A DNA stretch of 64,000 bases from Thelephora terrestris (Eukaryota; Basidiomycota; Agaricomycetes; Thelephorales; Thelephoraceae). Position 1 is the first letter of the stretch, and each line of letters begins with the position of its first letter. The position numbers were made by a program, and so were the translations under genes. The notes beneath the pieces were generated by a model, which saw nothing but the letters and a program-made list of their open reading frames with translations, did no database searches and was not told where the DNA came from. Shown here piece after piece: positions 21,502-61,010 of this stretch. The stretch is from positions 186,001-250,000 of the forward strand of contig WIUZ02000015.1 in assembly GCA_015956445.1 (NCBI GenBank). The letters run 5' to 3'.

Positions 21502-22796
21502 TTACGACTTCCCAACCCCCCACTTCGTCGCCCCATCTCGAAGCGATTCGAGAACTTGATCGACCGGGGGTCGTGCTGCGGGATCCTGCTGCCAACAGGC
21601 GGTAGTCAGATTCCATAGTTCCTCAGTGTACCCGCGGGTAAAGAGGAAAGTCGGCTTCTTGGGGCGAATCCCATTGATAATCGGCATGACCACAGAAAGG
21701 GTGTGGATTTCTTTAAATGGCTTCTCGCCAGTCAGGACCTTGGGTTAATTGAGCTCGGATGAAGGTGCAAATAGAATGTTGGTAAACGATTCACCTCATA
21801 GATCGTCATCCCCATCGAGTAGATATCGCTTTGCTTGGTGGCGTGGGGCTTCGCCCCAGGCTCGTCTTTCAGGAATTCGGGTGGGTAATAACGGAAATGT
21901 CCGCCGTCGCCAGCGACAGTCGATCTTTGGCCGAGTACCGTGTCTCCGTGTTCTCGAGTTATGCTTGCGTGTCCAACGTTACCAAGGCAGGCATGACCGT
22001 CGTCATCCACAAGGATGTATTTCTGCGTTCAATATGCGTGAGCACGCGAAGACGGGCAACGAAACGTGAACATCACCCCTTGGAGACCACCGTGGACGAG
22101 GCCGCTATCATGGAGATATTTTAGGCCGATGGCACTCTCCTCCAGCTGCGACAAGGGTCAGGCAGAAAGCGGAGGGGGATTCGGGCGACATACCAACTTC
22201 ACGGCGTTAACCTCGTGGTCCTCAGCCAAGTGATCCAGAACGTTTTGCATGCACGGGTATACGACGGCCAGCTCCTTGGACAGTGTGACTCCGATGAACG
22301 GCAAGATGTTCGGATGAGAGATCCGCTTCCAGACTACGGCTTCGCGACATAATCGACGCTGTGGGTAGACTCATTAGGCTCTTACGGCGCTACTATGAGG
22401 TGAACGTACTTGCTTTTATCGCTTTCTCGTCTTCGTCCTCGTATTTTGAGAAGACCTTGATTAGAACGAACTTCTCCCCATAATACCCCAGCCATACATC
22501 GGTTTCACCTGGCTGATTTTCGCCTTCCTTTTGCAGCTTGTCGTCGAGAATCAGGTGCGAGGTGGGCACGAAACAGTACGCTTTACAGATCTTCATGAGC
22601 GACATAAGGTATTTTTTCTTCTTGGATGGATCAAGTTTTTCGTCTAACAACTGCTTTCGATTTTAGCTAGCTCGTCTAGCGCAACGACGCGGTGGTTGGG
22701 ATTTACCTGATCTAACTGGTCGACGACTTTCTGGGCGTCCGCGGGAGATTTGGCATTGTTTTCGCATTGCTTCATGTCTTCTTCGAGTGTGGCCAT
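21502..22796 (-). CDS. TKL-type pseudokinase
   Basis: Starts MATLEEDMKQCENNAKSPAD at 22796, with no MLKL-like region. Exons near 22,650-22,405, 22,340-22,195, 22,170-22,090, 22,025-21,780 and 21,725-21,502 give a compact protein. A helical lead (YLMSLMKICKAYCFVPTSH) is the counterpart of the SLYKMC linker of the other kinases. The N-lobe keeps a lysine (VLIKVF) but has no glycine loop. The catalytic loop is VHGGLQG, so the catalytic Asp is Gly. The DFG position reads LGNVGHAS, so the metal-binding Asp is also gone. The activation segment keeps a PPEF substitute for APE, and the C-lobe SDIYSMGMTIYE and ARPPVDQVL are conserved. It should not transfer phosphate; scaffold or allosteric roles are known for pseudokinases, but none can be assigned here. 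Confidence 0.75.
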
Positions 22797-23705
22797 GTCG
22801 GTGGGAGGGGGGGTTTGTGCGAAGGTGTAACTTCAGGTACGGGAGAGAGAGAGGGGGGTCAGTCTCGCCTAGGTGAGCATCCGGGCTGTATTTAAATGAG
22901 TGTGTCGCACGGAAACCGCGTGAACATCGGACAGATGGTCACGGTACGCCTCTGGTTCGAGAAGGGGATAGACGATCTTCAGTGAATTGTATCTTTGATA
23001 AGAGCCTGTGCAGGTGACGACATGGCAGATTCCAAGATGAAAAGGATCGCGGGCCAAGATGGGTTTGTTTGGGCGACACCGGCCAACAATGAGATAGATA
23101 AGAATCACTAGGGCTGACGTCCCCAGATAAGAATTTTGAAAGGGTGCGGGGTAACACAGGCACGGACCAGGTGATCTGTGTGAACGTCCCTTCATTTCGC
23201 AGAGCAGGTGATGTAGTGCATCGCATCATGCTTGACGGCGACTCTCCTTCCCAGCAATGACGACAGTCGAAGGGCCAGACGCCAAACAGCGATACAGTTT
23301 AGGTGAGTTTAGGTGACGGAGGAGTGCAACGCTAAGGGTGAGCCACGTGAAGCGGATCAGACGCGAGATTTAGACGCTGGGATGCCATCGACCGTGAGCT
23401 TTTGCCAGCTTTTGCCCCCGTCGCCCGTCGCCCGTCGCCATCCCATCCCCGCTCCCCGTACGTTCGACGGCAAGAAACCGTCTCTCGTCTTTCGCTTTTC
23501 AGCCGCGTGTTTTTGCTTGGAATGCGCTTGGTTTGTTGACGTCATCCGGAGATCAGACCCACGCTGTTACGGATCCTTAACGCCGAGGTTTAGTCTGGTT
23601 TAGTACTCTCCCTTCGGAGGCCTTTCTCATTCGTCCATTTCCTTCAGGTGTGTAGGGACTGACTCACCTCTTTTTGCTTTCTTGTTTCTCATCATAGTTT
23701 TCAGC
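22797..23705. other. Intergenic and 5' leader of the Ser/Pro-rich gene
   Basis: No gene supported. A short repeat (GTTTAGGTGA twice near 23,296-23,315) and a CCCGTCGCCCGTCGCC run near 23,415-23,435 are visible. The last 60 bases are pyrimidine-rich and could contain a leader intron (AG at about 23,696). Confidence 0.4.
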
Positions 23706-28994: not shown

Positions 28995-31900
28995 TTACGA
29001 TGGAACTTCTGGATATTCGTGATTACTTTGTCGCCTGATCGCAGCCTCCTGGGGGAGGCTGATACAAGGAGATGCCTAACGAGCTACCGAGTTAAATCCA
29101 GAGGCCGCCGAAGAGACCCACTCAACCCACCTCATCAAGGATCTGTCCAGATTCCTCCAACGAAATTGAATTGTTTGCATTCATTCCGAGGGGCTGGGAA
29201 TCTGGAGCGTGAGATGGCACTAAGGAATGGTGAGCGGAAGCACAGGTAGTAGCATGTTCAATTTACCCTCTGGCAGTGAGAAATATCGCTCACTCTGATC
29301 TGTTCTCTCCTTGTCTTGTCACCCCAATCTGATATGGGTGGACTGGCTATCGCCTCAGGGGGGTGCGCCAAAGACCGTGAAACCTCCAAACGATGGAGAA
29401 CATCTTTGACGTCCGGGCGATCGCTGGGATTTGACTCCCAGCATTGCTGTAATGTAATCCAAATATCAACGGTAAACAACACTCCCTCTGTTCCTTGCGG
29501 CCGAGGAGGACGTTCACCCTCGATCACCTTCCTCACAACCACCACGTTCTCATACTGGGAAAACGGCACCTTGTTCGTCAGGACCTCGTAAACCACCATC
29601 CCAAGCGCATAAGAATCCGAAGGTCTTGTTGGACGACCATCCTCAAAACCAAACCCCTCTGGGTTCAAGAGCTCTGGAGCCATCCACCGGACCGTTCCAT
29701 CCCCCAGAAATAATTCCGAGGAGATAACGCTCGTGGTGTCTGAGGTGATCCTGATCAACCCAAAGTCCGCTAAGCACGCGCGACCGTTTTTGTCAACGAG
29801 GATATTGGCCTTGATAGAATAGAAGTGACCCATCAGTGTGAATTCGATCCAAGCCTCGATAAGCATACTCCTTTCAGATCTCCGTGGACAATCCCATGAT
29901 GGTGAAGGTGGACCAAGCCCCTCGCAACGTCTGCTGACTATCAGAGTTGTGATAGCGGCCGATAATACTCGAAGCTTGAAGAGAGAACTTACGAGTTCAA
30001 GGAGATTTGAAGCTGGATTTGCCGTTATGAACTCCCTGATGGTACCATTTAACATCCATTCGGATACCATGGCGAATTGTCCATCGGTCATCACTGCCCC
30101 GAGGAGCGGCACCACGTTCGGATGTCGGAGAGCCTTCCAAGGTATGACTTCTTTGCAGAATCTCTACAAATGGCATGCTCAGTTCGACGGTATCTACGGA
30201 GATACAAACTCAGCGACGGCAACTCACATCAGTAATCTCCATGAAATCGGAGGTTGCATGGACACGTAAAACCTTGACGGCGACCTCTCGTCCGCTGTGA
30301 TAACACTTGAAAACCTCTGCGCATCCACCATAGGCCACTGGATTATCCATCGGGTCCACGGGTAGCTCGACGTGGAGCGATCCGGGGAGCAGGGCGTGGC
30401 CAGCACACACCTTGTACGACGACCTCATACACTTCTTGCGGATTCGTGAGGGCAGGCTACAGCTGTCAAGCGCCTGACCAAAGAGATTTTCGGAAGGATT
30501 TTGTTCCTCGGAGATGAGGTAGCGTCACAAACCTGGTCTATCACGTCAACGAACCTCTGAGCACCGTCTCCCGTGCAGAGTTCGACGATGTCAGTGGCCT
30601 TCAGATCTGATAGGGCCATCTCGATAAGGAAGGGAAGTTCGTCCTGCGGTACGGTACCGCAGACCAAGCGCCACAAGTGACCCTCGGAATTTGGGGCGAG
30701 CGGTGGCCCAGAATCATCGCTGTGATCTACTGACTGCGGAGATGTGGGTCCGCCGGGCAGGGGAGCCTGCGACAGCTGGGGAGAAATTGTTTGAGGAGCG
30801 GAAGACCTTTCGCCCCCCAGGTCCACTCCAGTGCGTGAGTCCGGGTCCGGATTCGTTATTACTGGTCTGGCCATCGTTTGAGCAGGTGCCCAAGACATTG
30901 AAGCCTCCTCTAAACGATGGAGTACATCTTCCGCGCTTGGGCGGTCACTGGGCGTGGGCTTCCAACAACACTCCAAGGTATTCCAGATGTCATCCGTAAA
31001 CCAGCATTCTCCCTCTCCTTGTGGCCGTTCAGGGCGTTCGCCATTAAGAACTTTCCAGATCGCGGCGATACCTTTATAGTGCTTGTAGCGGTGAAACGGT
31101 ACCTTCCCGCTAAGGATTTCGTAAATCACCATTCCCAGTGCGTAGCAGTCCGAAGACTTCATCAGGCAATATCCCGCAAGGCCAAATTTCTCTAGGTAGA
31201 AGAGCTCTGGGCCCATCCATCGGATCGTCCCACCCCCCTGAAAGGAGTTCCATGGAGTAGTGTCTGTGGCATCCGGCTCGATGGTAAGTAGTCCAAAGTC
31301 CGCTAGGCAAGCGCGACCATTTTGATCAACAAGGACATTGACCTGTATAGTATAGGAATCATCACGTGTGCAATGTATGCCCTCCAAGACGTACTCCTTT
31401 CAGGTCCCTATGGATCATTCCCTGGGAATGGATGTGAACCAAACCCTTCGTAGCATCTGCCAGCTGACAAAGCGGTAATGGTGGTAAACGAAAGCTGAGG
31501 ATCTCATGAGGTTGAATGGAGAACTTACAAGCTTATACCGATTTGCATTTGGGTGTGTCTCGATAAACTCTTTGATGTTACCGCCCGCCATCCATTCGGA
31601 CACCATGGCGATTTGATCCCCGGCAATGGCCACTCCGAGGAGCGGCAAGATGTTCGGATGTTGGATAGCTTTCCAAGTTATCACTTCCCTCCAAAATCGC
31701 TACCAATAAAACAGTGGATTCATCAAAAACACAAGGATACGGGTCCACCAATGATGGGTCACCTTCGAAATTTCCCGTGAGCCGAGACCACGTGGCCGCA
31801 AAACCTTTACTGCAACCTCCCGACCACGGTATTCACACTTCGAAACCATCCCAAACCCACCTCGGCACTGTATATTGTCCATTGTATTTCCAGACAGCTC

Positions 31901-33220
31901 CAGGCGCATTGATGTGGGATAGAGCGTTTGTTCAGCACACATCTCATACAGCGATTTCACCCATTCGTTGCGAGTTCCGAGTGCAGGATCAAATTCGTCT
32001 AGCGCCTAAGCGAGGTTAGAAACGAACCCTTTCCTCAGCGGAGGGACAAATTCGCACACACCTGGTTTAACACATCAACGAGCGTCTGAAGTTCAGTTCC
32101 TTGGAGGTGATTTGAGATATCGGCTGCTTTTATGTGTGATACCACTGTTTCAACAAGGGAAGGGAGTTCTTCCTGGGGTGCAGCACCGCTGACCAAGCGT
32201 TGCAATGCTTGTTGGCCGGAATCGAGAATCGGTGTTGGGTTGTGGACGTGATTTGTATTCGAGGGCGGCACTGGCGAAGATGTGCCAAAATCTATGGCCC
32301 GGGGTAGAGGTGACGCGGCCTGTGCTCCATGATTGAGGTTTCCATCGGGAAGCACGCTCGGTGTGGGGGCTTGGAGACTAGGTTCGAATCGTCTGTCACA
32401 TACACGTCAGCTCAGCGATCCCAGTTATCCACCAATCAACGATACTAACGCAGCCTACATCGAGTGGATAGTCAGCTGGAGTAGCGGTGGGCTGGTTGAC
32501 GATAAGGACACACCATTTTGAGAGTAGGTGACAATGGGAGGTCCGCATCAACGAACCCGGCCATACGTAGTTCAATTTCGCCGACATCGAGGGTGTCGCA
32601 CCGCTTCCAGTCCCCCTGAGGCAGTTTAGAAATCGCAGACACGGCTGATATGAGTGGAAACGACCAACGTCGAAGGTTCTCAGTACTTCACGCAACAACT
32701 CATCCTGCAACGCGATTGCGCGTTCCTTGGTAAACGCCAAGCGGTGTTCCTGTAAATCACGGCCACCGTTTTTCCGTTCTCTCGCCGTGGAATCGATGTG
32801 TCGTACGGTCCTAATCTCACCCGTTACCGCTGTCGATCAGAGTTCGGATAGACTTGGCAACACACCTCGCCAGATCTTCGACTTGCACATTTCTAATGGC
32901 CTCCGAAATCCTCTCCTTGGGCGCTGGCCCAAACATGTGGCACGTTCTGACGCATAGTTCCGCCAGTTCCACAAATGCATCTTCCTCAATTATCCCGTCC
33001 TATTGGTGTGACAGATATCGATGAGGCTGCAAGTATGGGAGCCAGAGCAGTGGCTCACCTTGGCGAGGGTAAGAATTACGATAGCAGACTCGAACAGCGA
33101 CTCTAAACGCGTGGCTTCAACCTTGTCGTTGGAGGCGGCAAGGGGTTCTATGTCGGCGTTCAGTTTTGCGATTGTGGTCGAGTCGTACTCGACGTTCGGA
33201 TCTGTCTCAATGATCGTCAT
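28995..33220 (-). CDS. Tandem-kinase gene D: MLKL-like N-terminus, module, RD kinase, module, non-RD kinase
   Basis: Starts MTIIETDPNVEYDSTTIAKL at 33220. Helical N-terminal exons lie at 33,220-33,059 and about 33,000-32,640. The first module (LQRLVSGAAPQEELPSLVET) and kinase 1 follow: GGFGMV loop, VAVKVL lysine, REVITWK helix C, MIHRDLKG near 31,400, ADFGLLTI, GPEL. The exon at 31,345-30,540 runs through the C-lobe straight into a second module (LVCGTVPQDELPFLIEMALS). Kinase 2 has GGCAEV in place of the glycine loop, VAVKVL, VHGDLKG near 29,870, ADFGLIRI and APEL. The apparent stop at 29,258 follows a splice donor; conserved tail exons extend the frame to a stop at 28995, shorter than E and F. 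Kinase 1 looks competent; kinase 2 is non-RD. Architecture recalls tandem-kinase immune proteins, by analogy only. Confidence 0.75.
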
Positions 33221-40698: not shown

Positions 40699-43600
40699 AT
40701 GGATCCTCCCAAATCCGTCCCCCTTCGGGTCACTTGTATGTGTGCAAAGTGCACGCAATATTTACCTGGAGGAAAGGACGTCTCGGAAAGGACGTGGTTT
40801 CGGCATAACCCTGGTGGAAAAAAATCCAAATACGCTCCCCTCACGGCCGAACAGACCCTAGCATTTGATAGGATAGCCGCAATCCAGGACTCTCTCCCTC
40901 GTCCTAGAAGCAATGCACGGAAGCGACGTCGTCCGGAAGTCGAAGAAGTCGAAGTTACCCCGCATCCAGCTAAGCGAGCCGCGGGGTCGGGCTCGGTAAG
41001 CACGCCCACACTGCATATATGCGCCTCAAAAGTACGATACTCATAAAACAATTCATGTAGGGTACTCAGAATCTTATAGAAGTTGTTCCTGAGCGTGAAA
41101 CGTCCCCAGAAACAGGCCCAGTTTCTCCTCTACCTGAGCCCGAGCCCGAGAGTCTCCCTCCCCCTCCGATCTCAAGCCGCCTTATCGAAGATACTGGCCA
41201 AGATCCTCCTCCACCCTCCCCTCCACTCGAAGAATCCCATGACAGAGTCCTGGATCCTCCTCCTTCTGGCTTGGATACAGGTCCCAACCCCCCACAGGAT
41301 GGCGAATCCGGCGAATCTCCTCCCAGTGATGACGAAGATGACTCTCACATCACGCTGGATAGCATGAAAGAGAACTTCGCGTTCCTCCAGATGGTACGGG
41401 AGGCAACTCTAGAGGCTCAGTTCACTCCGGCTGAGCTCTATTCCCTCCGGAATCCTCAAGAGTCTAAGTTCTCCCCTTCTGACGACAGAGATCTCCTGCT
41501 ATCTATCAAGTTCTTTATGTCAACCCTGGACCACCTCACATCACAAAAGGCGTACACCGAGGCCCGTGAAGACATACTAGAGCGTTATCCTGATTCTGAG
41601 ATGCTCTCTTACGACCGGGTTAAGCGACTAGTATCTAATCTATCTGGGGTCCTTACTTGGAAACATGACATGTGTGTCGACTCCTGCACCGCATTCACGG
41701 GTCCATTCGCTCCTCTGGAAAACTGTCCTCGATGTGGTAAGCCGCGTTACGACCAAGAAAAACTCAAGACGTCCGGCGGAAAAGATAAGGTACCCCTCAA
41801 ATCCTGCACAACGATACCCCTCGGCCCACAGCTCCAGGCTTGCTGGAAAAATCCTGAGACGGCCGAAAAAATGACCTATCGGCGGAAAAAAACTCAGGAT
41901 CTACTGGAGAAGCTTGCCCGTGGTGAAGAATTCGACTATGACGATATATTCTGTGGCGAGGATTATCTCAAGGCAGCTCAGGAAGGTATTATCGACGAGC
42001 ACGATATGGTCGTCACGCTTTCTCTGGACGGCGCACAATTATTTCGCAACAAAAAATCAGACTGCTGGATCTACATCTGGATCATTCTAGACCTCGCTCC
42101 CGACCACCGTTATAAAATACGGCATATTCTTCCGGGCGGTATCATCCCCGGCCCGAAAAACCCCAAGCACCTCGACTCTTTCCTCTTCCCGGGTCTGGCA
42201 CACGTCTCTGCCCTTCAGAAGGAAGGGTTGCGCATCTGGGACGGCCTCAATAATCTCACTTTCGACTCATTTATCTATGTTCTTCTTGTTCTCATGGACG
42301 CCGTTGCTGCTGCTGACGTGAGCGGCGCTGTTGGCCACCACGGAAAAAAGGGCTGCCGGGTGTTTTGTGGGCTCGCCGGACGCAACAAACCCGGCGGTCC
42401 TCATTATTACCCCGCCTTACTACGTCCTCTGGATTGCGATAACCCGGCCTCAGATCACGCAGATATCGATATCAACAAATTACCCGACGCGAACCCATCA
42501 AATTACAGAAGAGATCTCCGGAAAGTGATGGCTTCCTCGACAGAAGCCGATTATAGATCTAACCGACTTGAAACCGGGATCAGGAAGAAAAGTATCTTCG
42601 GTGGCCTCCCTCGAATTCTACCTTTGCCGACCTGCTTCCCTGGGGATCTTATGCACCAGCCTGTGATAAATCTGACTGGCCTAATGCTCGAGTTATGGTG
42701 CGAGAAGGGGAACTGCCGGAAAGGCGATGATTCTTCTGATGTCTGGGACTGGGCGGTTCTGAAGGGGGACGTCTGGAAGGCTCACGGCAAGGTCGTCGCA
42801 CTGTGTTCCACATACTTCCCTCGCTCTTTCGACCGCACTCCTCGGAATCCCGCCAAGAAACTCTCGAGCGGGTACAAAGCCTGGGAACTTCTCCTGTATT
42901 TCTACGGCCTAGGGCCGGGACTTTTCTACGCGATACTCCCGGAGAAATACTACAAGCACTATTGCAAATTAGTGGTCGGCATCCGGATCATGTACCAACG
43001 TGAGTTTACGGCGGAACAGCTCAAACTCGCCCACCAACTCCTTCTCGAGTGGGTGTTCGAGTTCGAGCTTCTGTATTACCGCCGGAAGACGGAACGTCTC
43101 CATTTCGTCCGACAGTGTGTCCACTCACTTGTACACCTCGCCCCCGAGGCCCTTCGTCTTGGACCACCTTCCCTTTCGGCTCAATGGACCATGGAACGGA
43201 TGATCGGAATATTCGGCTCCCTGATCAAACAGCCGTCGAATCCCTTCGCCAATCTTGCGGAACAGGTAAAAAAGGTTGCGGAGGTCAACGCCCTCGTCTC
43301 TATGTGGCCATCCCTCGAGCGAGTGAAGAAGGATCCGAGGGGTGCTCTTGATCTCGGCTCGGGATACATTCTACTTGGGCCCAAAGACACTCGACCCCAT
43401 CCTCTTTCTGCGGCCGAAAAAAAATCAATCAATGTTTTTTTCCCTAATCTAAGCTCTACCTCAAGAGAGACTATCTACCGATGGGCCAGACTCCAAATTC
43501 CTAACGGACAAATCGCCCGTTCTTTCTGGAAGGAGGCTATCCGTACCACGAACGGCGCTCGGACTGATCGCAACGTTAAGGTACGCGATTTGATTCTTAC

Positions 43601-43968
43601 GTCTAACTCTAATTTTACGGCTAACATTGATCTAGATCTCATACCAAGGAGCCCTTCGCCTCGCGGAAGTCCAGTTCTACTTCCAAGTCGCTTCCGAGGG
43701 AGTCAACGAAACCCTCGCCCTCTGTTCACTATATTCCCCAATCGAGGAGAATATCAGAATTTATTCAAACAACGCCCTTAATGTATGTACTTATAACGGA
43801 CGGTCCGAGCTAGTCGTGGTTCGCGTAAATACTTTTCTTTCGGTCGTAGCTATGATACCATTTGGTGAGCAGGGCGAAGGGACTCAAGATTTTTTTTTGG
43901 TAGAAAAATTTGCATTAGGCGTAGTAGACACGGGTACGTCGGATACTTTGGATGATGTAGACGCGTGA
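40699..43968 (+). CDS. Tnp2-type transposase
   Basis: Three exons with agreeing phase: 40699-40995, 41061-43580 and 43636-43968, total about 1049 residues. The N-terminus (MDPPKSVPLRVTCMCAKCTQ) holds a CxxC pair and a basic stretch (ARKRRR), then a Pro/Glu-rich spacer. A zinc-knuckle-like CVDSCTAF...CPRCGKPRY at about residues 300-325 precedes the catalytic core (VTLSLDGAQLFRNKKSDCWI; GDLMHQPVINLTGLMLELW; SLSAQWTMERMIGIFG). These features match the Tnp2/Transposase_21 family of CACTA elements. Acidic residues of the core are present, but I did not fix the full DDE set. Reading through the second intron would also stay open to 43781, so the splice at 43580 is chosen because exon 3 has a coherent hydrophobic C-terminal pattern. 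Confidence 0.85.
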
Positions 43969-46442: not shown

Positions 46443-46820
46443 GATCTTGGAGGTGTGCTCGCGCGGGCCTGCGACCCACCAAAGAGGGCACCAATGTACC
46501 GGGACGGCTGTGGTGCGGGTGGGAATAAGCGAGGGGATGACCCCATTTTAAAAATAGATCAGTGTTGCTGTCCGTCGACTAGAATCGATACGAATAGATT
46601 TTTTGTTGCTCCCGCTCGATACGCATAGAACCGCAATTATATTAAGATCTATCGAAATCTACCCTGCGCTACGGTCGGACGTCGAGTTACCAATCCAGGC
46701 TCCCTCTCGCTCCTTGTCGATCTGCATGGGGCGTGTGCGACTTTCCTGCCATTTGTACAACCCGCATCAACCCGCATCAACCCGGATCGACCCTGGTCTA
46801 AGGATCGCTCCGGTTTGAAC

Positions 46821-46854
46821 CCGCTAGCTCCTGCTGGATCAAATTCTGTCCGGG
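46821..46854 (-). repeat. Right terminal inverted repeat
   Basis: Reverse complement of the left repeat, 34 of 34 bases. Confidence 0.9.
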
Positions 46855-46861
46855 CTTGAGG
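46855..46861. repeat. Target-site duplication, right
   Basis: CTTGAGG, identical to 40423-40429. Confidence 0.8.
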
Positions 46862-46930
46862 GACTGTGCACAACATTTCACGATCGCATCCGGACCCGCG
46901 ATCGTGCCTTCACTCCGAGACAGTCAACCG

Positions 46931-48797
46931 ATGACGATCTCAAGAGGTCCGTCTGTTATCCCCCCCTCAATACATCCTTCGCTAACGCCACGAACTTACA
47001 GAAAGCTCGTCGAAGCTGGGGAACAGCTGGCGGTGTGGTCAAGTTACAACTATGCGAAGAGTTTGAGTAAGTCCGGATCATTATCGCACTTTCCATGACT
47101 AATTGGCCTGCAAGTAAAAAAAGAGACGATAAAAAAGGGCGTCAGGACGATTACTGAGGACCTCAAGTCCGTTGTGAGTCTCGTCAAAAACTTTGTTGAA
47201 TTACCTGTAATGTATCCGTAGCTTCTGCAGGCCTCTGGGAGACCGACTGCTCCGTCCACCCTCGGAGTGAACACATTCGGCGGTAGGAGTGTCGAAGGCG
47301 TCCTTACTCCGGGGGGAGTGAGCGATTCCAGTGCTGCGACCGCTACCAGTCGTGATGTAGGTGCATTTGTTCCCCCCACAAACCATGCGGATGATGATAC
47401 CGGATGGCCGACACCCAGAATCACGAATCACTTCTGCGTCAAACCTCGCAACACGGGACACTAGCGGAGAACAATTTAGTGGAAGCGATTCAACCACCCT
47501 TCGTCAAGCGATTGAACGGGGAGGTCGAGAGGGAAGGACAAATACCCTTTGCCGAGGGAAGGTATTGCGAAGTCTGGGAAGGGCTATGGCGAAAAGGCGG
47601 TGGAAAAGGGATTGGTAAGGAGAAGGCAGGCGCCGAGAAGGTGAGCGTGAATCTCCCCCATCTCTATTTCGCTGATGCAGTCCCCTACAGGTAGCCTTGA
47701 AAGTGCTCAAGACACTCAAGGCGCGACCGGGGTCAAAGGGGACAGGGGGAACAAAGACGGCACGTGAGGTGTGATTTTCCCCGAGCGACCCTGTGCCCCT
47801 CGCTAATGCGCTCGCCACTCACCAGAGTCTCGAAAATGTACTTCCGAGCTGGGCAGAGTCACATCATCCGAATATCCTGCCGTTCTACGGTGTGTATGTC
47901 TCCCAACTGTTGTCTCGAAGGTTTTCATGATTTTGTAGGGATCATTGACTTTCCATCACGCCTTTACATGGTGAGTGAACCATACCGTGTAAGAAACCGT
48001 GGGTAGATTCAGCTTGCCTAGGTCTTCCCATGGCGAGAAAATGGACATCTATTTGATTATATCAGGAAACAGCCTCGATTAGAGAAAGATAAATATTATC
48101 TGGTAGGCTCTATACCAAGCCAGAAGGAACTTGAGCCTCATTTGTCGTGGTTTAGTTGCGTGGTTCTGCAGCTGGGTTAAGTTACCTCCACTCGAGGGGG
48201 TTGGTACATGGGAGTGGTAAGTTGACATTAACTTGACGATCATCGCAATTTGACACCTCATACAGTCCGATGCGTAAGTTTCTGACGGCATCCTGTTAAC
48301 CACTATTGACTCAAGGCGCACAGAATAACGTGTTCCTCACTGACGAGGTAAATCCTATGTCCCTCCGCCGATAAAATAGGAGTTGACGGTACACCGGTCA
48401 GGGTGAACCGCAGATCTGTGACTTTGGGATAGCAATGATTTTCCACGAAACCTACGAGAACTCCGTATCGAAATCGTTGTCACCCGCAACAAACGTTAGG
48501 TATGCGGCCCCTGAGATCATCGCACACAACAATTTCCACATAACGGCATATTCCGACACGTATTCCTTCGCGCTGCTGATACACGAATGTATCACGGAAG
48601 CTCCCCCCTTTTCGGAAATCCCTCGTGATGCTGCGGTCGCTCATGCAAGGATCCGCAAGGGACAGTGTCCCCGCCGACCGGTTGGCCAGCGCATCCCGGA
48701 CGATTTGTGGGACCTTATGAACCGTTGTTGGTCCACCAAACCAGAATTGAGGCCCCCAATGGATCATGTGCACCGTTTTTTCTTGGACCGGGTTTGA
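46931..48797 (+). CDS. TKL-type pseudokinase with HGS catalytic loop
   Basis: The first exon is set at MTISR (46931), about 70 bases past the transposon; this start is uncertain. Small exons (KLVEAGEQLAVWSSYNYAKS; TIKKGVRTITEDLKSV; SGRPTAPSTLGVNTFGGRSV) lead to NHESLLRQTSQHGTLAENNL near 47,420. The N-lobe has VALKVLKTL with the lysine. The catalytic loop is assembled across an 8-nt exon (48266-48273) and reads HGSVRCNNVFLTDE, aligned to HRDLKPxNV: the catalytic Asp is Ser and the lysine Arg, while Asn remains. DFG is intact (ICDFGIAM), followed by AAPEI and a normal C-lobe (SDTYSFALLIHECIT; CWSTKPELRPPMDHV) ending at 48797. Phosphotransfer seems unlikely. The transposon occupies its promoter side. 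Confidence 0.6.
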
Positions 48798-49805: not shown

Positions 49806-52800
49806 ATGATGACCACTGACACACCTCACGACCTCGAGCGCGACTCAGCGACAATCACAAATCTGAGCACCGACGATGAATTTGGAGCACAGGCCGCATC
49901 ACCTGTACCAATAGATTCGGGTATACCCTCCCCACCGCCGCACCAGAATACAAATCGCGTCTGTAATCCACCACCGGTTTTAGATTCCAGTCAACAGGCC
50001 TTGCAACGCTTGGTCAACGGTGCTGTACCCCAGGACGAATTCCCCTCCCTTATCGAAACAGTCGTGTCAAACATGAAAGCAGCCGATATTGCCAATCACC
50101 TGCCGGGAATCGACGCTCAGACATTCGTTGATGTGTTAAATCGGGTGTGCATGACGTTGTTCCACCGCCGAGGACCAGGTTCGTTGCTAACCTCGCTTAG
50201 GCGCTGGACGAATGCAATCTTTCACTCGGAATTCGCAACGGATGTGTGAGATTCTTATATACGATGTGCGCTGGACACACCCTACTTCCGACATCGATGC
50301 GCCTAGAGCTGCCTGGGAATGCAATGGGCGATATCCTATGCTGGGGTGGATATGGGGTCGTTTCGAAGAGTGAATATTGTGGCAGGGAGGTCGCAGTCAA
50401 AACTTTGCGGCCACGTCGTCTCGACTCGGAGGAAATGTCGAAGGTGCGCCATCATTGGTGGACATATCCTTGTGCGCTCCTTGAATCCACCAATCTATTT
50501 GTAGAGGTTCTGGAAGGAAGTGATAGCTTGGAAAGCCGTCCAGCATCCGAATGTCTTGCAGCTCCTTGGGGTGGTCATTGCCGGAGATCAAATCGCCATG
50601 GTGTCCGAATGGATGGCGGGCGGTAACATCAAGGAATTTATTGGGACATACCCGAATGCAAATCGGTATGAGCTTGTAAGTTCTTCGTGGTATCCCCAGC
50701 GTCATCGACCATTAATACATGTTCGATAGTTGGCAGATGCAACGAGGGGTTTGATCCATATTCACCGTCAGGGCATGATCCATCGAGATCTGAAAGGGGT
50801 ATGTCTTCAAGGGCATACGTTGCGCACACGCTGACTCCCATTCTAATTCTGTCAAGGCGAACATCCTTGTTGATCAAAATGGTCGCGCTTGCCTAGCGGA
50901 CTTCGGTCTACTCACGATCGACCCGAACTCCATAGATATCACACCCTCGAACTCATTTCAGGGTGGCGGGACGGTCCGGTGGATGGGCCCAGAACTGCTC
51001 TACCCAGAGAAATTAGGCCTTACAGGTCGTCCCCTCACTACATCTTCGGATTGCTACGCACTTGGAATGGTGATATACGAAGTCCTGAGCGGGAAAGTAC
51101 CATTTTACCACTGCAAGCACTATAGGGGCGTTGCTGCCATTTTCAAGATTCTTAGGGGCGATCGTCCCGGACGGCCGCAAGGAGCGGGAGGACTCTGGTT
51201 TACGGATCACATCTGGACTACCCTGGAGTGTTGCTGGAAGCTCACGTTGGATGACCGTCCAAGTGCTGAAGATGTGCTCCATTGTTTGGAGAAGGCTTCA
51301 GAGTTCTGGACGCCCGCGCACACGATGGCCTTTTCACCGGCAACAGATCAGCCCACAGCAAATTTGGACTCATGCACTGGGGAGAGTACGAAGGAGTACG
51401 AAACATCATCCGCCTCTCAGACGGGACCACCCAATACCGAAGCCGCTTTGCGACGCTTGGTTGGCGGTGCGGTGCCGCAGGATGAACTTCCCTCCGTTAT
51501 CGAGATGGTCGTGTCAAACCTGAAGGCAGCCAATATTGTCCAAATTCTCCAAGGGAGCGATGCCCAGACGTTCATTGATGTAGTAGACCAGGCATGTGGA
51601 CCCCCGCGCTCCATCTCAGAGGAACAAGTTGGTTGCTAATTTCCCTCCGGCCAGGCGCTTGAAAGCTTTGACTTTCCCCTGCGAATCTACAAGAAGTGTT
51701 TAGAGTCGTTGTGCAAGATGTGTGCTAGCCACACCCTGCTGCCCAGATCGCTGCACTTTGAACTACCTGATATCGGGATGGGCGAACTGTTTGCTAATGG
51801 TGGTTGTGCAGATGTTTTCAAGCATGAAAACCGTGGTCAATGGGTAGCAGTCAAGATTTTACGTATATACAGGACCCTGGAACCTCGGATTATAAATGTA
51901 AGCTACCCTTGGTTGGTCTGCACCATATGGGCATCTGCGAACTGAGCATGCCATTCGTAGATGTTCTATCGTGAAGTAGTAACCTGGAAAGCTCTTCCGA
52001 GACATTCAAACGTGTTGCCGCTCCTTGGGGCAGACGTGACCGGAAACCGATTTGCCATGGTGTCTGAGTGGATGTCAAATGGTAACATCAGGGAGTTCAT
52101 AACGGCGCATCCAGATGCAAATCGTTTCGAACTCGTAAGTTCTCTCTCCAAACTCCGGGTGTCGTTGACCACAGTTCTGTCCTTGGTAGCTGGCAGATGT
52201 TGCGAGGGGCACGGTCCATCTACATAATCACGACATGGCCCACGGAGATCTGAAAGGAGTATGTCTTCGAAGGCATCGATCACACACGCACTGATGGTTT
52301 CTTCTATTCTATATAGCAAAATGTCCTCGTTGATCGCAACGGTCACGCCTGCTTGATTGACTTTGGGCTACTCAGGATCATCTCAGATACCACAGACATT
52401 GAGTCCTCAAACTCATCTCGGAGAGGTTTTACGGCCCGGTGGGCCGCTCCAGAGCTCCTTCTTGACGATTCTTGCAAATCGAAATCTTCCGATTGTTACT
52501 CGCTTGGAATGGTAGCATACGAAACCCTAACCAACCGGGCACCATTTCACGAACATTCAGACTTTATACTTATGGTTATGGTGGTTGAGGGTGAACGTCC
52601 CGAACGGCCACAAGGAGCAGAAGGAATATGGTTCACAGATGATATCTGGAATACCTTAGAGGATTGCTGGAGGCAAAATCCCAGCGATCGTCCAAGTGCC
52701 AGAGATGTTCTCTATCGTTTCGAGAATTCACAGTGCTGGAACCCCCCTCCCCAGGCGGTAATCCATCCACCAATGTCAAATCGAAGTGACGGGGAAAGGA

Positions 52801-53388
52801 CAGATGAGGGTGAAGTATCTTCCCTCTCTCAAATTGTGGTACCTCGGCTGTCACTCGGCCTCTCGCAAGAAGGTAACCCAAATATAACACAACCTATGCC
52901 TCTGCTCACCACCCCTTCGTTCCTTTTGACGCTCAAGATTACCAGCCCCTTGGAACGAATGTACATGATCTGAGTGGGTCAGAGGGATCTCTGCAAGGTC
53001 TCGATGGGGTGAGTTGGGCGAGTCTCTTAGGCGGACGCTGGGATCAATTCAGTCGCCCGTTAGGCACCTCTTGGTAGCAGCATTCCTCAGGAGGCTCCAC
53101 TCAGGCGACGAGGTATTCAAGAGTACTTGGAAGGCCCATCGCAATCCCGTCTCGTCGCGAGTGGAAGTCGAACGGTCGGCATTGGACCATCGGAACTGGA
53201 CGGTGCATCCGGGGGGTTTACGAAGGAGGTTTGCATGCTTTTCGTTTCATCGGTGCATGTTACTGAAAACTTTGTAGGAAAATGTCGTTATAAGGAAGGA
53301 GCGATGGCCCTCTCGTACCCTCGATCAACTCCAAACGCGATCTAGAATTGTGTTTGGGTGGGTGAATAGAAAGGTGCTGGGCAAGTAA
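49806..53388 (+). CDS. Tandem-kinase gene E: module, RD kinase, module, non-RD kinase
   Basis: Twelve exons sum to 972 residues in phase: 49806-50144, 50201-50443, 50505-50675, 50730-50798, 50857-51591, 51655-51897, 51961-52134, 52190-52258, 52317-52872, 52938-53008, 53091-53228, 53278-53388. No MLKL-like region: the start (MMTTDTPHDLERDSATITNL) runs directly into the linker. Module 1 is at about residues 55-150. Kinase 1 (about 155-420) has GGYGVV, VAVKTL, MIHRDLKG and ADFGLLTI, all catalytic residues intact. Module 2 follows to about 555. Kinase 2 has GGCADV, VAVKIL, MAHGDLKG (non-RD), LIDFGLLRI and AAPEL. The tail exons encode a basic end (FGWVNRKVLGK). The intron after 51591 has a GC donor and must be removed, since reading on meets a stop at 51639. 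Start by alignment with gene F. Confidence 0.8.
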
Positions 53389-53693
53389 CGGCTCGCTTTT
53401 AAGGAGTCAGATGCGGGATATTTTTATACTTGGGGTTCAGTGCCCCTGCATATTTCACAACTTATTGCTCGAAGAATCACAGTCGCGACAGGAGGAAAGC
53501 CGATCACGCCCAGGGAGCGCAGCCACTGTGCATACGTAAGCTGGAATCTGGCATGGGGTGCACACCTTGGCGGGGTTCAACTGCCCCTTGAGAGCTCGGA
53601 GAACAAATCCATCTGGATCTACTCTTACGATGAACTTCAACTCCTCACACAGAACGCCCAAATAATTGATAGAAAACTTCCCAGTTTCGGGAT
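53389..53693. other. Short spacer between E and F
   Basis: About 300 bases with no gene, ending at the conserved promoter block of F. Confidence 0.4.
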
Positions 53694-53820
53694 TTCGGCG
53701 CCAATTCACTGCGTCCATATCGCGTGCCATTTGTGAGCCTGGCGACAACTTGTTCTGCATCGGTCTACGGTATTCCACCGTATTTCCCTCTCTCCCTACT
53801 CGCTCCCCCGGGTCTATACA
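53694..53820 (+). promoter_or_regulatory. Conserved promoter block of gene F
   Basis: GGCGCCAATTCACTGCGTC, then a TTGTGAGCC core and CTCTCTCCCTACTCGCTC just before the start; the last string is shared with gene H. Confidence 0.5.
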
Positions 53821-56800
53821 ATGGCCGTTGACAAAGTTTTCAACGTTGAGAGCGACTCCGACTCAGCAACGGTTGCAAAACTGAACACCAACAATGAAAG
53901 CCTCGGTCTTGCGGCACAGGTCTCGCCACCTCTTCCCATACATTCGGTCATACATTCGCCAATGCCACACAAAGATAAAAATCCAATTTCTAAACCACCG
54001 CCGATTCTTGGCTCTGATGAACGAGCCTTGGAACGCTTGGTCAACAGCGACACACCCCGCGACGAACTTCTCCCCCTTGTCGAGACAGTGGTATTGAATG
54101 TGGAGGGAGCTGATATCGTTGGTCGTCTCCAAGGGACCAGTGCTCAGACGTTCGTTGATGTATTAGACCAGGCATGCATGTCACCGGTTCACAGCCGAGG
54201 TACAGATTCGCTGCTGATTCCTCTCCGCCAGGCGCTAGACGGCTCCAGTTTCTCACTCGGAATTCGCAACAAATGCGTGAGATCGTTATATAAGATGTGT
54301 GCTGGACACAAAATACTTCCCACATCGATGCGCCTAGAGTTGCCTGAGGACGCAATGGTCGATATACAATGCTGGGGTGGATATGGGATAGTTTCGAAGA
54401 GTGAATATCGTGGTCGGGAGGTTGCAGTCAAAGCTTTGCGGCCACGCCGTCTCGGCTCGGAGGAAATGTCGAAGGTGCGCCATCGTTGGTGGACCAATAT
54501 CCTCGCGCGTTTGATGAATCCACCGAACTATTTGCAGAGGTTCTGGAAGGAAGTGATAGCTTGGAAAGCTGTCCAGCATCCGAACATCTTGCCGCTCCTC
54601 GGGGTGGTCATTGCTGGAGATCGAATCGCCATGGTGTCTGAATGGATGGCGGGCGGTAACATCAAGGAATTCATTGGGACACATCCGAATGCAAATCGGT
54701 ATGAGCTTGTACGTTCTTCATGGTATCCCCAGCCGACTTCGACCATCACTACGTGTTTGATAGTTGGCAGATGCAACGAAGGGTTTGATTTATATTCACC
54801 GCCAGGGCATGATCCATCGGGACTTGAAAGGAGTATGTCTTCAAAATCATACATTGCGCGCACACTGATTCCCACTCTATCAAGGCGAACATCCTTGTTG
54901 ATCGAAATGGTCGCGCCTGCCTAGCGGACTTCGGTCTGCTCACGATCGAGCCGGATTCCGTAGATATCACACCCTCGAACTCGTTTCAGGGAGGCGGGAC
55001 AATCCGGTGGATGGGCCCAGAGTTGCTCTGCCCAGAGAGATTAGGTCTTACAGGTCGTCCCCTCACTAAATCTTCGGACTGTTACGCACTTGGTATGGTG
55101 GTATACGAAGTTCTGAGCGGGAAAGTACCATTTCACCACTGCAAGCACTATAGAGGCATTTCTGCCATCTTTAAGATTCTTAGAGGCGATCGTCCCGGAC
55201 GGCCGCAGGGAGCGGGAGGACTCTGGTTTACGGGTGACATCTGGACTACCTTGGAGTGTTGCTGGAAGCTCACGTTGGATGACCGCCCAAGTGCCGAAGA
55301 TGTGCTCCATTGTTTGGAGAAGGCTTCAGTGTTCTGGACACCCGCTCAGACGATGGCCTTTTCATTGACAACAGATCAGCCCACATCGAACCCGGACTCG
55401 TGCACTGGGGAAAGTACAAATGAGGACGAAATATCTTCCGCTTGTCAAACAGCCTCGATCTACCGTCAGCAAAGCCGCCCAGCTGCAGCGGTGCTGGAAT
55501 GGGCGTTTAAGGGTGCTGCGCGATCGCCACAGCCGCCCTCCGCTTTTGCTGATGACGCAGAAGGCGCCTTAAGACGCTTGGTCTGGAGTGCCGTATCGCA
55601 GGAGGAACTTCCCTTCCTTATTGAGCTGGTCGTGTCAAACCTGGATGCGGCCAATATTGTCCAGTTCCTCCAAGGAAGCGATGCCCAGACATTCGTCGAT
55701 GTAATTGACCAGGTATGTGACCCCCCGCGCTCCGTCTCAAAGGAAAAAGTTAGTTGCTAATCTTCCTGGGATCAGGCGCTTCACAGCCTTAACTTCCCCC
55801 TGCGAATCCGCAAGAAGTGTGTGGAGTTGTTGTGCAAGATGTGTACTGGTCACACTCTGCTTCCCAGATCGCTGCACTTCGAACTACCCGATATCGGGAT
55901 AGGCGGTCCGGCGGCGTGGGGTGTATTTGCAGAGATTTTCAAGTGTGATTACCGTGGCCAATGGGTAGCGGTCAAGATTTTACGTGTGAGCCCGGCCTCA
56001 CTATCGCCAAGGATCATGAATGTAAGCTACCGTTGCTGGGTCTCTACCATGTGGGGATTCTCCAACCGGGCATGCCATTTGTAGACGTTCCATCATGAAG
56101 TCGTGAACTGGAAAGTTCTCCCGAGACATCCAAACGTGCTGCCGCTCCTCGGGGCAGACGTGACCGGAAGCCGACTTGCCATGGTGTCTCAGTGGATGGC
56201 AAATGGTGAAATCAGGGATTTTATAACGGCACATCCAAATGCAAATCGGTTCAAGCTTGCAAGTTCTCTCTTCTAACTCCGAGTGTCGTTGATCACAGTC
56301 ATGTTCTTGGTAGCTGGCAGATGTCGCGAGGGGCCTGGTCCATCTACATAACCACGGCGTGGCCCACGGAGATCTGAGAGGAGTATGTCTTCGAAGACAT
56401 CGATCACGCACACGCACGCACTGATCTTCTGTTCTATATAGCGAAACGTCCTTGTTGATGGCAACGGTCGCGCCCGCCTGATTGACTTTGTGCTACTCAG
56501 GGACATCTCAGATACCACGGTCATTGTGTCCTCAAACTCATCGCGGAGAGGTTTTACGGCCCGGTGGGCCGCTCCAGAGCTCTTTCTTGACGATTCCTGC
56601 AAATCGAAATCTTCCGATTGTTACTCGCTCGGAATGGTGGCATACGAAACCCTAACCAACAGGGTACCATTCTACGACTGTGCGAGCAATATGTTTATTT
56701 TTAGGGTGTTGAACGGTGAACGTCCCAAACGGCCGCAAGGAACACAAGGAATATGGTTCACAGATGATATCTGGAATATCTTAGAGGATTGCTGGAGGCA

Positions 56801-57530
56801 CAATCCCAGCGATCGTCCAAGTGCCGAAGATGTTCTCTATTGTTTCGAGGTTTCACAGTGCAGGAACCCCCCTTCCCAGGTGGTGGTCCATCCACCAATG
56901 TCAAATCGAAGTGACGGGGAAAGGACAGATGAGGGCGAAGTATCTTCCCTCTCTCAAATTGCGGTGGCTCCCCTGTCATTCGGACTCTCGCTGGAAGGTT
57001 GGCTAAATATGGTACAGCCTATGCCTCTGCTCACCATTCCTTCGTTCCTTTCAACACTCAAGATCTTAACGCTCAAGATTTTCAGGCCCTTGGAACGAGT
57101 GTCAACGATCTGAGTGGGTCAGAGGAATCTCTACAAGGTCTCGATGGGGTGAGTTGAACGAGTCTCTTAGGCGGACTCTGGGATTAATCCAGTCGCCTGA
57201 TAGGCATCTCCTGATAATAGCCTCCTTCAGGAGGTTCCGCTCGGGCGACGGGGTATTCATGAGTACCTCCTGGAGGGTCCACCGCAATACCGCCTCGTCC
57301 CGAGTGGAAGGCAAACGGTTGGCATTGGTCCACCGGAATTGAACGGTGCATCCGGGGAGTTTTCGAAAGAGGTTTGCATCCTTCAAGTTCATTGGTGCAC
57401 GTGACTGAGGTTTTTGCAGGAAAATGTCGTCAAGAGGAAGAATCGATGGTCTTCTGGTACCCTCGATCACCTCCAGATGCGATCTAAATTGGCGGTTGAG
57501 TGGGTGAATAGAAAGATGCTGGGCAAGTGA
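53821..57530 (+). CDS. Tandem-kinase gene F: module, RD kinase, module, degenerate kinase
   Basis: Twelve exons sum to 1014 residues: 53821-54171, 54232-54474, 54538-54708, 54764-54832, 54885-55712, 55776-56021, 56085-56258, 56314-56382, 56442-56997, 57063-57148, 57231-57371, 57420-57530. It starts MAVDKVFNVESDSDSATVAK and, like E, lacks the MLKL-like region. Kinase 1: GGYGIV, VAVKAL, MIHRDLKG, ADFGLLTI, GPEL, all intact. A 40-residue insertion relative to E precedes module 2. Kinase 2 is the most decayed in the family: GVFAEI for the glycine loop, VAHGDLRG, and DFV in place of DFG, while the VAVK lysine and APEL remain. Two introns have GC donors (after 54171 and 56258); the first could also be read through in frame. 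The tail ends VEWVNRKMLGK. E and F are tandem duplicates. Confidence 0.8.
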
Positions 57531-59074: not shown

Positions 59075-61010
59075 ATGAACGGAAATCTCGATCTCGTCGT
59101 TGAGGCCTCGCTGCCCGCACTCACCGATTCCAGCGTGTCTTTACCTCTGGACCAAGGGGACATGGATCACAGCCCAAATCCGCCACTCATTCCCGACTTT
59201 GATAAACGAGCCTTGCAACGCTTAGTCAGCGATAGCGTACCGCACGACGAACTTCTTCCCCTTATCGAACTAGTAGTCACAGACGTGAAGGCAGCCTCCA
59301 TTGTCGGATTTCTCAAAGGAAAAGATGCCCAGACGTTCATCGACGTGATAGACCAGGTATGCATGGTACTGTTCCAGCCCCATGCAATACCTTCGTTGCT
59401 GATATTTCTCTGCTCAGGCACTAGATAACCCCGATCTCAGGCCGCAAGTTCGCAGAAGATGTGTGAAATCCTTATACAAGATGTGTCTTGGCCACACCCT
59501 CCTTCCCAGATCACTGCACTTCGAGCTACCTGGGGATGCGATAGGTGATTTTCAGTGCAAGGGAGGTTTCGCGGACGTTTTGAAGTATGAATGCCATGGT
59601 CATGAGGTTGCGGTCAAGGCTTTGCGGGTAAACGCTCAGGCTTTGCAGGAAGTTACCAAGGTGGGTCAAAGTTGGCGAGTTGCTATCTCATTGGAGTACC
59701 AGGGAACCGAGCGCTCTTTTCTAGATGTTCTACAAGGAGGTCATAACCTGGAAAAACCTCCGGCATCCGAACGTGCTACCGCTCCTCGGGGTGGTCATGA
59801 CAGAGAACAAATTCGCCATGATATCCGAATGGATGACAAACGGGAACATTAACCAGTTCGTGAGGGCGCGTCGGGATGCGAATCGGTTTCAACTCGTGAG
59901 TGCTCTCTTCGAGCTCCTGATACCCTCAACTGACCAGGGTGGTGGCTTCGATAGCTAGCAGATGTTGCGGAGGGCCTGATCCATATGCACCGTAATGGGA
60001 TGATCCATGGTGACCTCAAAGGGGTACGTTTTCAAGCGCCCGTTTTGGACGGCCTGTGACTGATTGATCCGATCTTCAAGGAAAACATCCTCATTGATCA
60101 GACTGGAAGTGCCCGCCTAGCAGACTTTGGCTTACTCACAATCACATCGGACACCACGAACATCACCTCTTCAAATTCATTCCTGGAAGGTGGGACATAC
60201 CTGCGGATGAGTCCAGAACTCCTCGATCCAGAGAAATTCAATTTTAAAGACAACCGCCCCACGAAATCCTCGGATTGCTATGCGCTCGGAATGACGGTAT
60301 ATGAAGTCCTGAGTGGGCGACTACCGTTTTACCATTATGAGGACTGTACCTCCTATTTTATTATCGCAAAGGTTCTCGACGGCGCACACCCCCAGAGGCC
60401 ACAAGGAGCAGAAGGAACGTGGTTCATAAATGCCGTTTGGAGCATTCTGGAGCGTTGCTGGGCGACCAACCCGGCTGACCGTCCGAAGGTCAAAGATGTG
60501 CGCCGTTGTATGGAGAAGAATGCAAGGTCTTGGATACCCGCTCGTCAGGTGACGACTGGTTCGGCAACAGCGGATTCCAGCGGCAGAGGAATGTTGCATG
60601 AAGGTGGAGCCTCTTCTTCTGAAGCGACCCTCCGGTTGTTGCCAGGGCTCTCGCTGGAAGGTGACGCAAACAAAATAAGGTACCTTCTCTCGCTCACTAT
60701 CCCTCAGTTCCCTCTAGCAACACCCTGGACTCGTCCCTTGGGATGAACATGAACGACCTCAGCTCGTCGGAGGTATCCGAAGAACCGAGTAAGGTGAGTC
60801 AGATAGATCTCTTCGATGATGTCTAGAGTTAACGTTACGGCCACTTAGATGTCGCACGGTGACACCTCCTCTCAGAATACCTCACCCAGACAGCAGGGCA
60901 CCCGTGACCACCAGAAGGCTACACCGAAACCCCACTCTACTCTGGGTAGGCTGAAACGGTCAATATCGAGAACCTGGAACTTGGTAACCAAACAGGTGGG
61001 GAAATTTTAG
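59075..61010 (+). CDS. TKL kinase H: linker module and single non-RD kinase
   Basis: Seven exons sum to 530 residues: 59075-59356, 59418-59660, 59725-59895, 59955-60023, 60081-60660, 60708-60793, 60849-61010. The chosen start, MNGNLDLVVEASL, is the first ATG in the surviving frame; the ancestral one upstream is gone. The module (LQRLVSDSVPHDELLPLIEL; RCVKSLYKMCLGHTLLPRSL) precedes a kinase with GGFADV loop, VAVKAL lysine, MIHGDLKG non-RD loop, ADFGLLTI and a SPEL substitute for APE. This single kinase resembles kinase 2 of the tandem genes and the kinases of B and C more than kinase 1. The last two exons give a Ser-rich then basic tail (LKRSISRTWNLVTKQVGKF). It has no MLKL-like domain. Confidence 0.75.

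Follow-up and report, generated by a model that had tools for sequence, protein, structure and literature searches.

Why a fungus would place two TKL kinases on one polypeptide is the question raised by three genes, here called D, E, and F, in a 64,000-nucleotide stretch of the Thelephora terrestris genome (the window: positions 186001-250000 of contig C7, in an assembly of 40.6 Mb and 60 contigs). An initial annotation had described each gene as joining an RD kinase, which has arginine before the catalytic aspartate (HRD), to a non-RD kinase (HGD) in one spliced frame, and had proposed that the two form a regulatory pair. The results presented below indicate that the three genes go back to a single fusion, that the RD kinases are the exception in their family, and that the two kinases of each gene are unequally constrained. 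We consider it probable, at roughly 0.58, that D, E, and F each encode an enzyme and a regulatory kinase paired on one chain, derived from one fused gene that was duplicated locally. Coordinates given without a contig refer to the window.

The TKL kinase family to which these genes belong is large and clustered, with at least 171 six-frame matches to PF07714 genome-wide. Each family unit in D, E, and F consists of an N-module of ~95 amino acids followed by a TKL kinase, and four intron positions, every intron in phase 0, are common to all six units. Units were located with a purpose-built spliced profile aligner, which also supplied the models of D, E, and F, and were accepted at a score of at least 290, a threshold set from junk alignments, which reached at most ~83 and mostly contained many introns. 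The resulting tally comprises 81 modelled units; everything scoring lower was dropped, including real-looking partial or odd stretches (scores of 153, 212, and 251), and locus labelling kept out a clear HGD member with a score of 668. The survey covers this one genome, and the family tree was built from its own units. Among the best 60 of 2,545 matches to solved sequences, those nearest to F unit 1 were the TKL/TK kinases CTR1, RAF, B-RAF, TNNI3K, and EGFR (best E 3.9e-27); these matches fall in the kinase part, none beginning earlier than query position 79, slightly ahead of the glycine loop or from the loop onward, and none of the 60 covers the first part of the F N-module. No Pfam match was found for the N-module of F or the C-terminal tail of E, and no NCBIfam match for the N-module.

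Gene E (49806-53388, plus strand) has 12 exons and encodes 981 amino acids with no internal stop, arranged as an N-terminal leader, an N-module with kinase 1, a linker, an N-module with kinase 2, and a C-terminal tail. Its first unit (49995-51315, HRD) is followed by an open, in-frame linker of 43 codons (51316-51444) and a second unit (51445-52745) with HGD and an intact DFG. Gene F (53821-57530, plus strand) has the layout of E, also with 12 exons and no internal stop, encoding 1,023 amino acids; its first unit (54022-55343, HRD) is joined by an open, in-frame linker of 74 codons (55344-55565) to a second unit (55566-56855) that reads HGDLRG at the catalytic loop and DFV in place of DFG. The two proteins end alike, in WVNRKVLGK for E and WVNRKMLGK for F. 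Gene D lies on the minus strand and, as far as modelled, spans 29357-33220, with a possible start at 33220, an extra N-terminal part, and two units: unit 1 at 30884-32211 (HRD, motif codons 31396-31412) and unit 2 at 29357-30676 (HGD, motif codons 29870-29886). Its model is incomplete, with a stop in the C-terminal tail where E and F continue and an uncertain N-terminal part. Introns with a GC donor were also observed in E and F (51592-51654, the first intron of E unit 2; 54172-54231; and 56259-56313), where a sister unit has GT.

Several lines of evidence indicate that the two kinases are translated in one frame. The linkers of D, E, and F differ in length (207, 129, and 222 bp), and each is divisible by three and free of stops. 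In both E and F, Pfam identifies two PF07714 and two PF00069 stretches, and both kinase domains score above the PF07714 cut-off. The alternative, that each locus comprises two separate genes and that the gene models are wrong, could appeal to a methionine at the fourth linker codon of D, E, and F; however, no stop separates the units in any of the three, the differences between the linker lengths are multiples of three, and the E-F linker is under purifying selection, with 12 synonymous differences over 25.8 sites and 11 non-synonymous differences over 85.2 sites in its first 37 codons (dS, the synonymous divergence, 0.72; dN, the non-synonymous divergence, 0.14). We regard this alternative as highly improbable. 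The fusion of two kinases in D, E, and F is thus established at the sequence level, as the initial annotation had it, with D represented by an incomplete model.

We then asked which of the two kinases is the unusual one. Genome-wide searches with exact codon patterns located HGDLKG at 183 places (96 + 87) and HRDLKG at only four, with backward-read controls returning 1 and 0 matches in the HGD searches and 2 in the HRD search; exact patterns miss variants such as the HGDLRG of F2. Three of the four HRDLKG places are the first kinases of D, E (50781-50797), and F (54815-54831). The fourth, C59:1453654, was rejected as a family member, being another kinase with scores of 133 and 214 against the required 290. 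Among the 81 units, the residue before the catalytic aspartate is glycine in 75, arginine in 3, serine in 2, and a gap in 1, and the column of the third glycine in the glycine loop holds alanine in 47 and glycine in 15. D1, E1, and F1 carry arginine before the catalytic aspartate and are RD kinases by definition. Because HGD and alanine at the third glycine prevail in the family, D2 and E2 are ordinary members and D1, E1, and F1 the exception; HGD is the family norm, and on this tally the arginine of the first kinases was regained.

This changes how the second kinase is to be viewed. The first-unit loops (CRGGFGMV in D1, CWGGYGVV in E1, CWGGYGIV in F1) conform to the GG[FY]GxV pattern originally described. 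The second-unit loops had been called damaged, a description that does not hold for D2 (GGCAEV) and E2 (GGCADV), which have the usual family form and retain the lysine, HGD, and DFG; only F2 (AWGVFAEI) departs further, with valine at a column where 65 of 81 units have glycine and without the DFG glycine. Likewise, the idea that the non-RD state marks a regulatory domain was rejected, given that nearly every member of the family has HGD.

A further candidate for an RD/non-RD pair was encountered on the minus strand of C9, where a kinase with HRDVKAA (468609-470053) precedes an HGD unit (466955-468305) in frame across 303 bp of open sequence. The HRDVKAA kinase (C9:468597) scored 107 and was not accepted as a family member, and the arrangement is possibly a second pair of independent origin.

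To place these units within the family, a kinase tree of 83 rows was built with the HxD columns removed and with rows excluded if they scored below 150 (eight loci excepted) or were less than 75% filled; some degenerate rows in it have long branches and uncertain placement. D1, E1, and F1 formed one clade (support 100), as did D2, E2, and F2 (support 97), and both clades recurred in a careful tree built from 24 full units (100/100 for unit 1 and 97/94 for unit 2). The HRD group sits inside a 34-row clade (starred in the tree) with 30 HGD, 3 HRD, and 1 HGN members. Since unit 1 and unit 2 each form one clade, these trees indicate one event, not three: a single fusion and a single gain of arginine account for D, E, and F. 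The statement that HRD always comes first and HGD second is accurate for the three genes but describes one event inherited by all of them, and the genes were rejected as three independent observations of this order. As the source of the two units, internal duplication and the joining of two neighbours from the same subclade were not separated by an approximately unbiased (AU) test (p 0.458).

The two kinases of D, E, and F differ in constraint. Simple Nei-Gojobori counts of dN/dS over the kinase part, with intervals from 1,000 codon bootstraps, gave 0.165 (0.100-0.271) for unit 1 and 0.593 (0.394-0.959) for unit 2 between E and F, an order reversed in 0 of 1,000 bootstraps. Between D and E the values were 0.184 and 0.379, and between D and F 0.191 and 0.379, each order reversed in 5 of 1,000 bootstraps. 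By this measure, unit 1 is a conserved enzyme and unit 2 a freer kinase, though not on account of HGD. The contrast is smaller in the N-modules, at 0.338 and 0.471 for units 1 and 2 between D and E and 0.439 and 0.508 between D and F. Because the second kinase is less constrained, and because F2 has lost the DFG glycine, the pairing of a catalytic with a regulatory domain fits these genes. The proposal of a regulatory pair therefore retains its footing in the fused, unequal kinases, while its appeal to HGD as the regulatory mark falls away.

To determine whether the arrangement extends beyond D, E, and F, neighbouring units were surveyed in part of the genome. Among 29 same-strand pairs within 2.5 kb, 15 share an open frame with no stop between the units, each across a gap below 500 bp, and 12 of these are pairs other than D, E, and F; six pairs with gaps below 500 bp were not joined, nor was any of the eight pairs at least 800 bp apart. 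This sample is biased, drawn from 46 of 161 planned regions, with some loci chosen as candidates and the rest taken in contig order, and the small gaps depend on aligner end points. Among the 187 exact sites genome-wide, 16 neighbouring same-strand pairs were 1.2-1.8 kb apart, with none closer and none at 1.8-2.0 kb, a spacing that fits a head-to-tail unit. The six unjoined pairs with gaps below 500 bp, none of them in the count of 15, were tested for a bridge of one intron, which was found for C23:1025413+1026748 (62 bp, GTAAGT..CAG) and C12:751534+753058 (103 bp) and was not found for C23:741350+742715, C23:1152776+1151438, C23:302119+300283, or C6:414197+412763, the last of which is open in frame under alternative unit boundaries.

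Across these pairs, HRD followed by HGD occurs only in D, E, and F, and a broken unit may stand on either side, so no general rule of order is apparent. Genes with an HGN unit ahead of an HGD unit are located at C6:414197, C6:536975, C6:548594, and C6:588211, where the model of 536975 contains stops and 548594 also has lysine changed to arginine (K to R). At C1:4205505 the first unit has K to R, HGI, and DIG, and at C1:438777 it has HGY and DLG, each followed by an intact second unit. At C7:115459 the first unit is intact and the second has HGN and EHG; at C23:1149963 the first is intact by its K, HxD, and DFG residues and the second has K to R. The intact units C23:741350 and C23:1025413 are followed by units that have K to Q together with GFD/GFN; no fusion was found for the former pair, and the latter is fused only via an intron. 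Both units are intact by these residues in C6:170374+169062, C23:902211+903506, C23:300283+298894, C6:486817+488470, and C23:1151438+1149963. Thus, the dead unit comes first in some fused genes and second in others. Because the unit combinations of several fused genes occupy different parts of the 83-row tree, these data suggest several separate fusions in this genome. In one region (C23:1148000-1154500, minus strand), four units stand in a row; the second to the fourth share one open frame, giving three kinases in one chain, and a single stop within a 54 bp gap sets the first apart.

Where copies could be compared, the dead units appear to be maintained. The HGN units of C6 gave kinase-part dN/dS values of 0.245, 0.155, and 0.245 in three comparisons, with 0.278, 0.133, and 0.149 for their partners. 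The ratio was 0.202 (0.129-0.289) for the unit with K to Q and GFx and 0.241 (0.116-0.363) when the C1 unit carrying HGI and K to R was compared with C23:1152776, a K-to-R unit, and three single-unit pairs included for comparison ranged from 0.160 to 0.363. Synonymous divergence was saturated, yielding no value, for C6 414-588, unit 1 of C23 741-1025, and unit 2 of C1/C23. Five units of these other genes that were checked against Pfam (PF07714), four dead and one intact, were accepted as kinases. By these ratios, the dead units that are comparable between copies are kept by purifying selection like their intact partners.

The window also contains three single-unit relatives of the same subclade, all with HGD, at 5525-6843 (minus strand), 18547-19871 (minus strand), and 59207-60539 (plus strand), the last just downstream of F. 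The extra N-terminal domain of D lies at 33139-32865 (minus strand); the only Pfam match to it is DED with E 0.21, far below the cut-off, which does not count as evidence. Because similar pieces also precede single-unit relatives, E and F may have lost this part. Two further kinase-like stretches have HGS (46505-48779, plus strand) and HGG (21520-22805, minus strand) in place of HxD, the former uncertain, with a score of 251 and 15 introns. Between D and E, an open reading frame of 906 amino acids (41061-43778, plus strand) matches Transposase_21 (tnp2; E 7.6e-10) and appears to be a remnant or copy of a DNA transposon, and F-box-like open reading frames occur at 2210-3763 (plus strand; E 3.1e-4, under the curated cut-off) and 14729-16327 (plus strand; E 9.2e-6).

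Taken together, the pattern of constraint and the precedent of yeast Gcn2 and plant tandem kinase proteins (TKPs) lead us to favor an enzyme paired with its regulator. An ancestral fusion would have joined two units of a mostly non-RD TKL family, and the fused gene would then have been duplicated locally. Unit 1, strongly constrained and with its RD arginine regained, would provide the catalytic output. RD kinases are switched through activation-loop phosphorylation, and judging from its RD state alone, unit 1 may be switched in this way. Unit 2, which keeps HGD and drifts, would act mainly as its allosteric or sensing partner, a part like that of the pseudokinases in GCN2 and JAK, and other genes repeat the design with either unit broken. 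While fusion, single origin, the gain of arginine on the tree, unequal kinase constraint, and upkeep of the comparable dead units stand as results of sequence analysis, we infer intramolecular regulation, activation-loop switching, and any biological role. Several points weigh against the proposal. The evidence comes from DNA sequence, and the counts are of the Nei-Gojobori type on models from our own aligner. Between E and F the contrast in constraint lies in the kinase part, and the N-modules show none (0.312 and 0.320); a dN/dS near 0.6 for E2-F2 could reflect early decay, with 16 of 1,000 bootstraps reaching 1. E2 and D2, with lysine, HGD, and DFG kept, are perhaps active kinases and not regulators. 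The undecided AU test, the stop in the D tail, and the use of C6:536975, whose model holds stops, in two of the three HGN comparisons count against it as well.

The retention of these residues in E2 and D2 would also suit two working kinases sharing a chain without mutual regulation, fused for co-expression or for action on two substrates, and other pairs are intact in both units by these residues, among them C6:170374+169062 and C23:902211+903506, which compared with each other give a dN/dS of 0.302 in the first unit and 0.241 in the second. Given the unequal constraint in D, E, and F, the DFV of F2, and the loss of catalytic residues from one unit in several other fused genes, we find this explanation unlikely. 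It is also conceivable that the genes reflect the birth and death of a kinase cluster, with chance fusion of tandem duplicates and a second unit decaying without any special role, as might be expected in a family of this size and clustering and as the DFV of F2, the stops in the D tail and in the C6:536975 model, and the E2-F2 ratio of 0.59 might imply. However, dN/dS remains below 1 in the E-F linker and in both units, and in other genes the units with lost catalytic residues show constraint close to that of intact units, so that such an origin appears improbable. Similarly improbable, in our estimation, is a direct counterpart of plant tandem-kinase resistance proteins, in which unit 2 or a dead unit would bait foreign proteins and the partner kinase would signal non-self. 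The anatomy resembles that of plant TKPs, described as having arisen by duplication and fusion (PMC6170490), and the family is clustered, with a faster-evolving unit 2 kinase; nevertheless, no pair giving a value had a dN/dS above 1, and D, E, and F carry N-modules. A role in defence or recognition is a possibility and not a result. A broader proposal, which we advance tentatively and consider doubtful, is that one TKL family holds a repertoire of tandem kinase/pseudokinase proteins of several independent origins, with either unit dead yet under selection, as a fungal parallel to TKPs possibly serving non-self recognition.

Comparison with known systems places the enzyme-plus-regulator proposal in context. 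JAK proteins are tyrosine kinases with a FERM-SH2 front, in which a regulatory pseudokinase precedes and adjoins the kinase. In contrast, E and F have no Pfam match to FERM or SH2, and their better conserved unit comes first. The kinase of GCN2 belongs to another kinase group, and its RWD and HisRS-like domains have no Pfam match in E or F. In yeast Gcn2, an eIF2-alpha kinase, the pseudokinase is described as contacting and activating the kinase directly (PMC4014428, PMC12394161); as these reports portray it, this fungal protein carries pseudokinase and kinase in one chain, as here, with the pseudokinase first. The initial annotation, which was aware of no described fungal counterpart, had overlooked this protein (PMC4014428). 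Plant TKPs such as WTK1/Yr15 and RPG1, for which JAK has been named as an analogue, are described as having two kinase domains per chain, one of them putatively a pseudokinase, and as polyphyletic, arising by duplication and fusion, with a non-RD first kinase in WTK1 (PMC6170490). D, E, and F resemble them in encoding a pair of kinase domains within a single open frame and differ in having an N-module before each kinase and a better conserved first unit that is RD. As for a pseudokinase, D2 and E2 keep K, HGD, and DFG, F2 has DFV, and dead units occur in other genes of the genome. Both routes of origin given for TKPs seemingly occur here, with the units of D, E, and F from one subclade and those of the C1:4205505 type from different clades. 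D, E, and F and plant TKPs may work alike, a comparison made with a family tree that holds only the units of this genome.

Large lineage-specific expansions of TKL/FslK kinases are already known from Agaricomycetes (PMC3937382, PMC2838846), and the family here is likewise large; two kinase domains per protein are not described in the cited portions of those reports. Among the matches listed, no report of fungal tandem TKL kinases was found in the open-licence literature. If the proposal is correct, this fungus would have repeated the tandem-kinase design of plant immunity and JAK signalling several times within one gene family, providing a natural experiment in the passage from an enzyme pair to a pair of enzyme and regulator. 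The fused genes broken on opposite sides would offer a direct test of the pseudokinase contribution and of domain order, and the RD arginine regained among non-RD relatives provides a natural comparison of how RD and non-RD kinases are switched.

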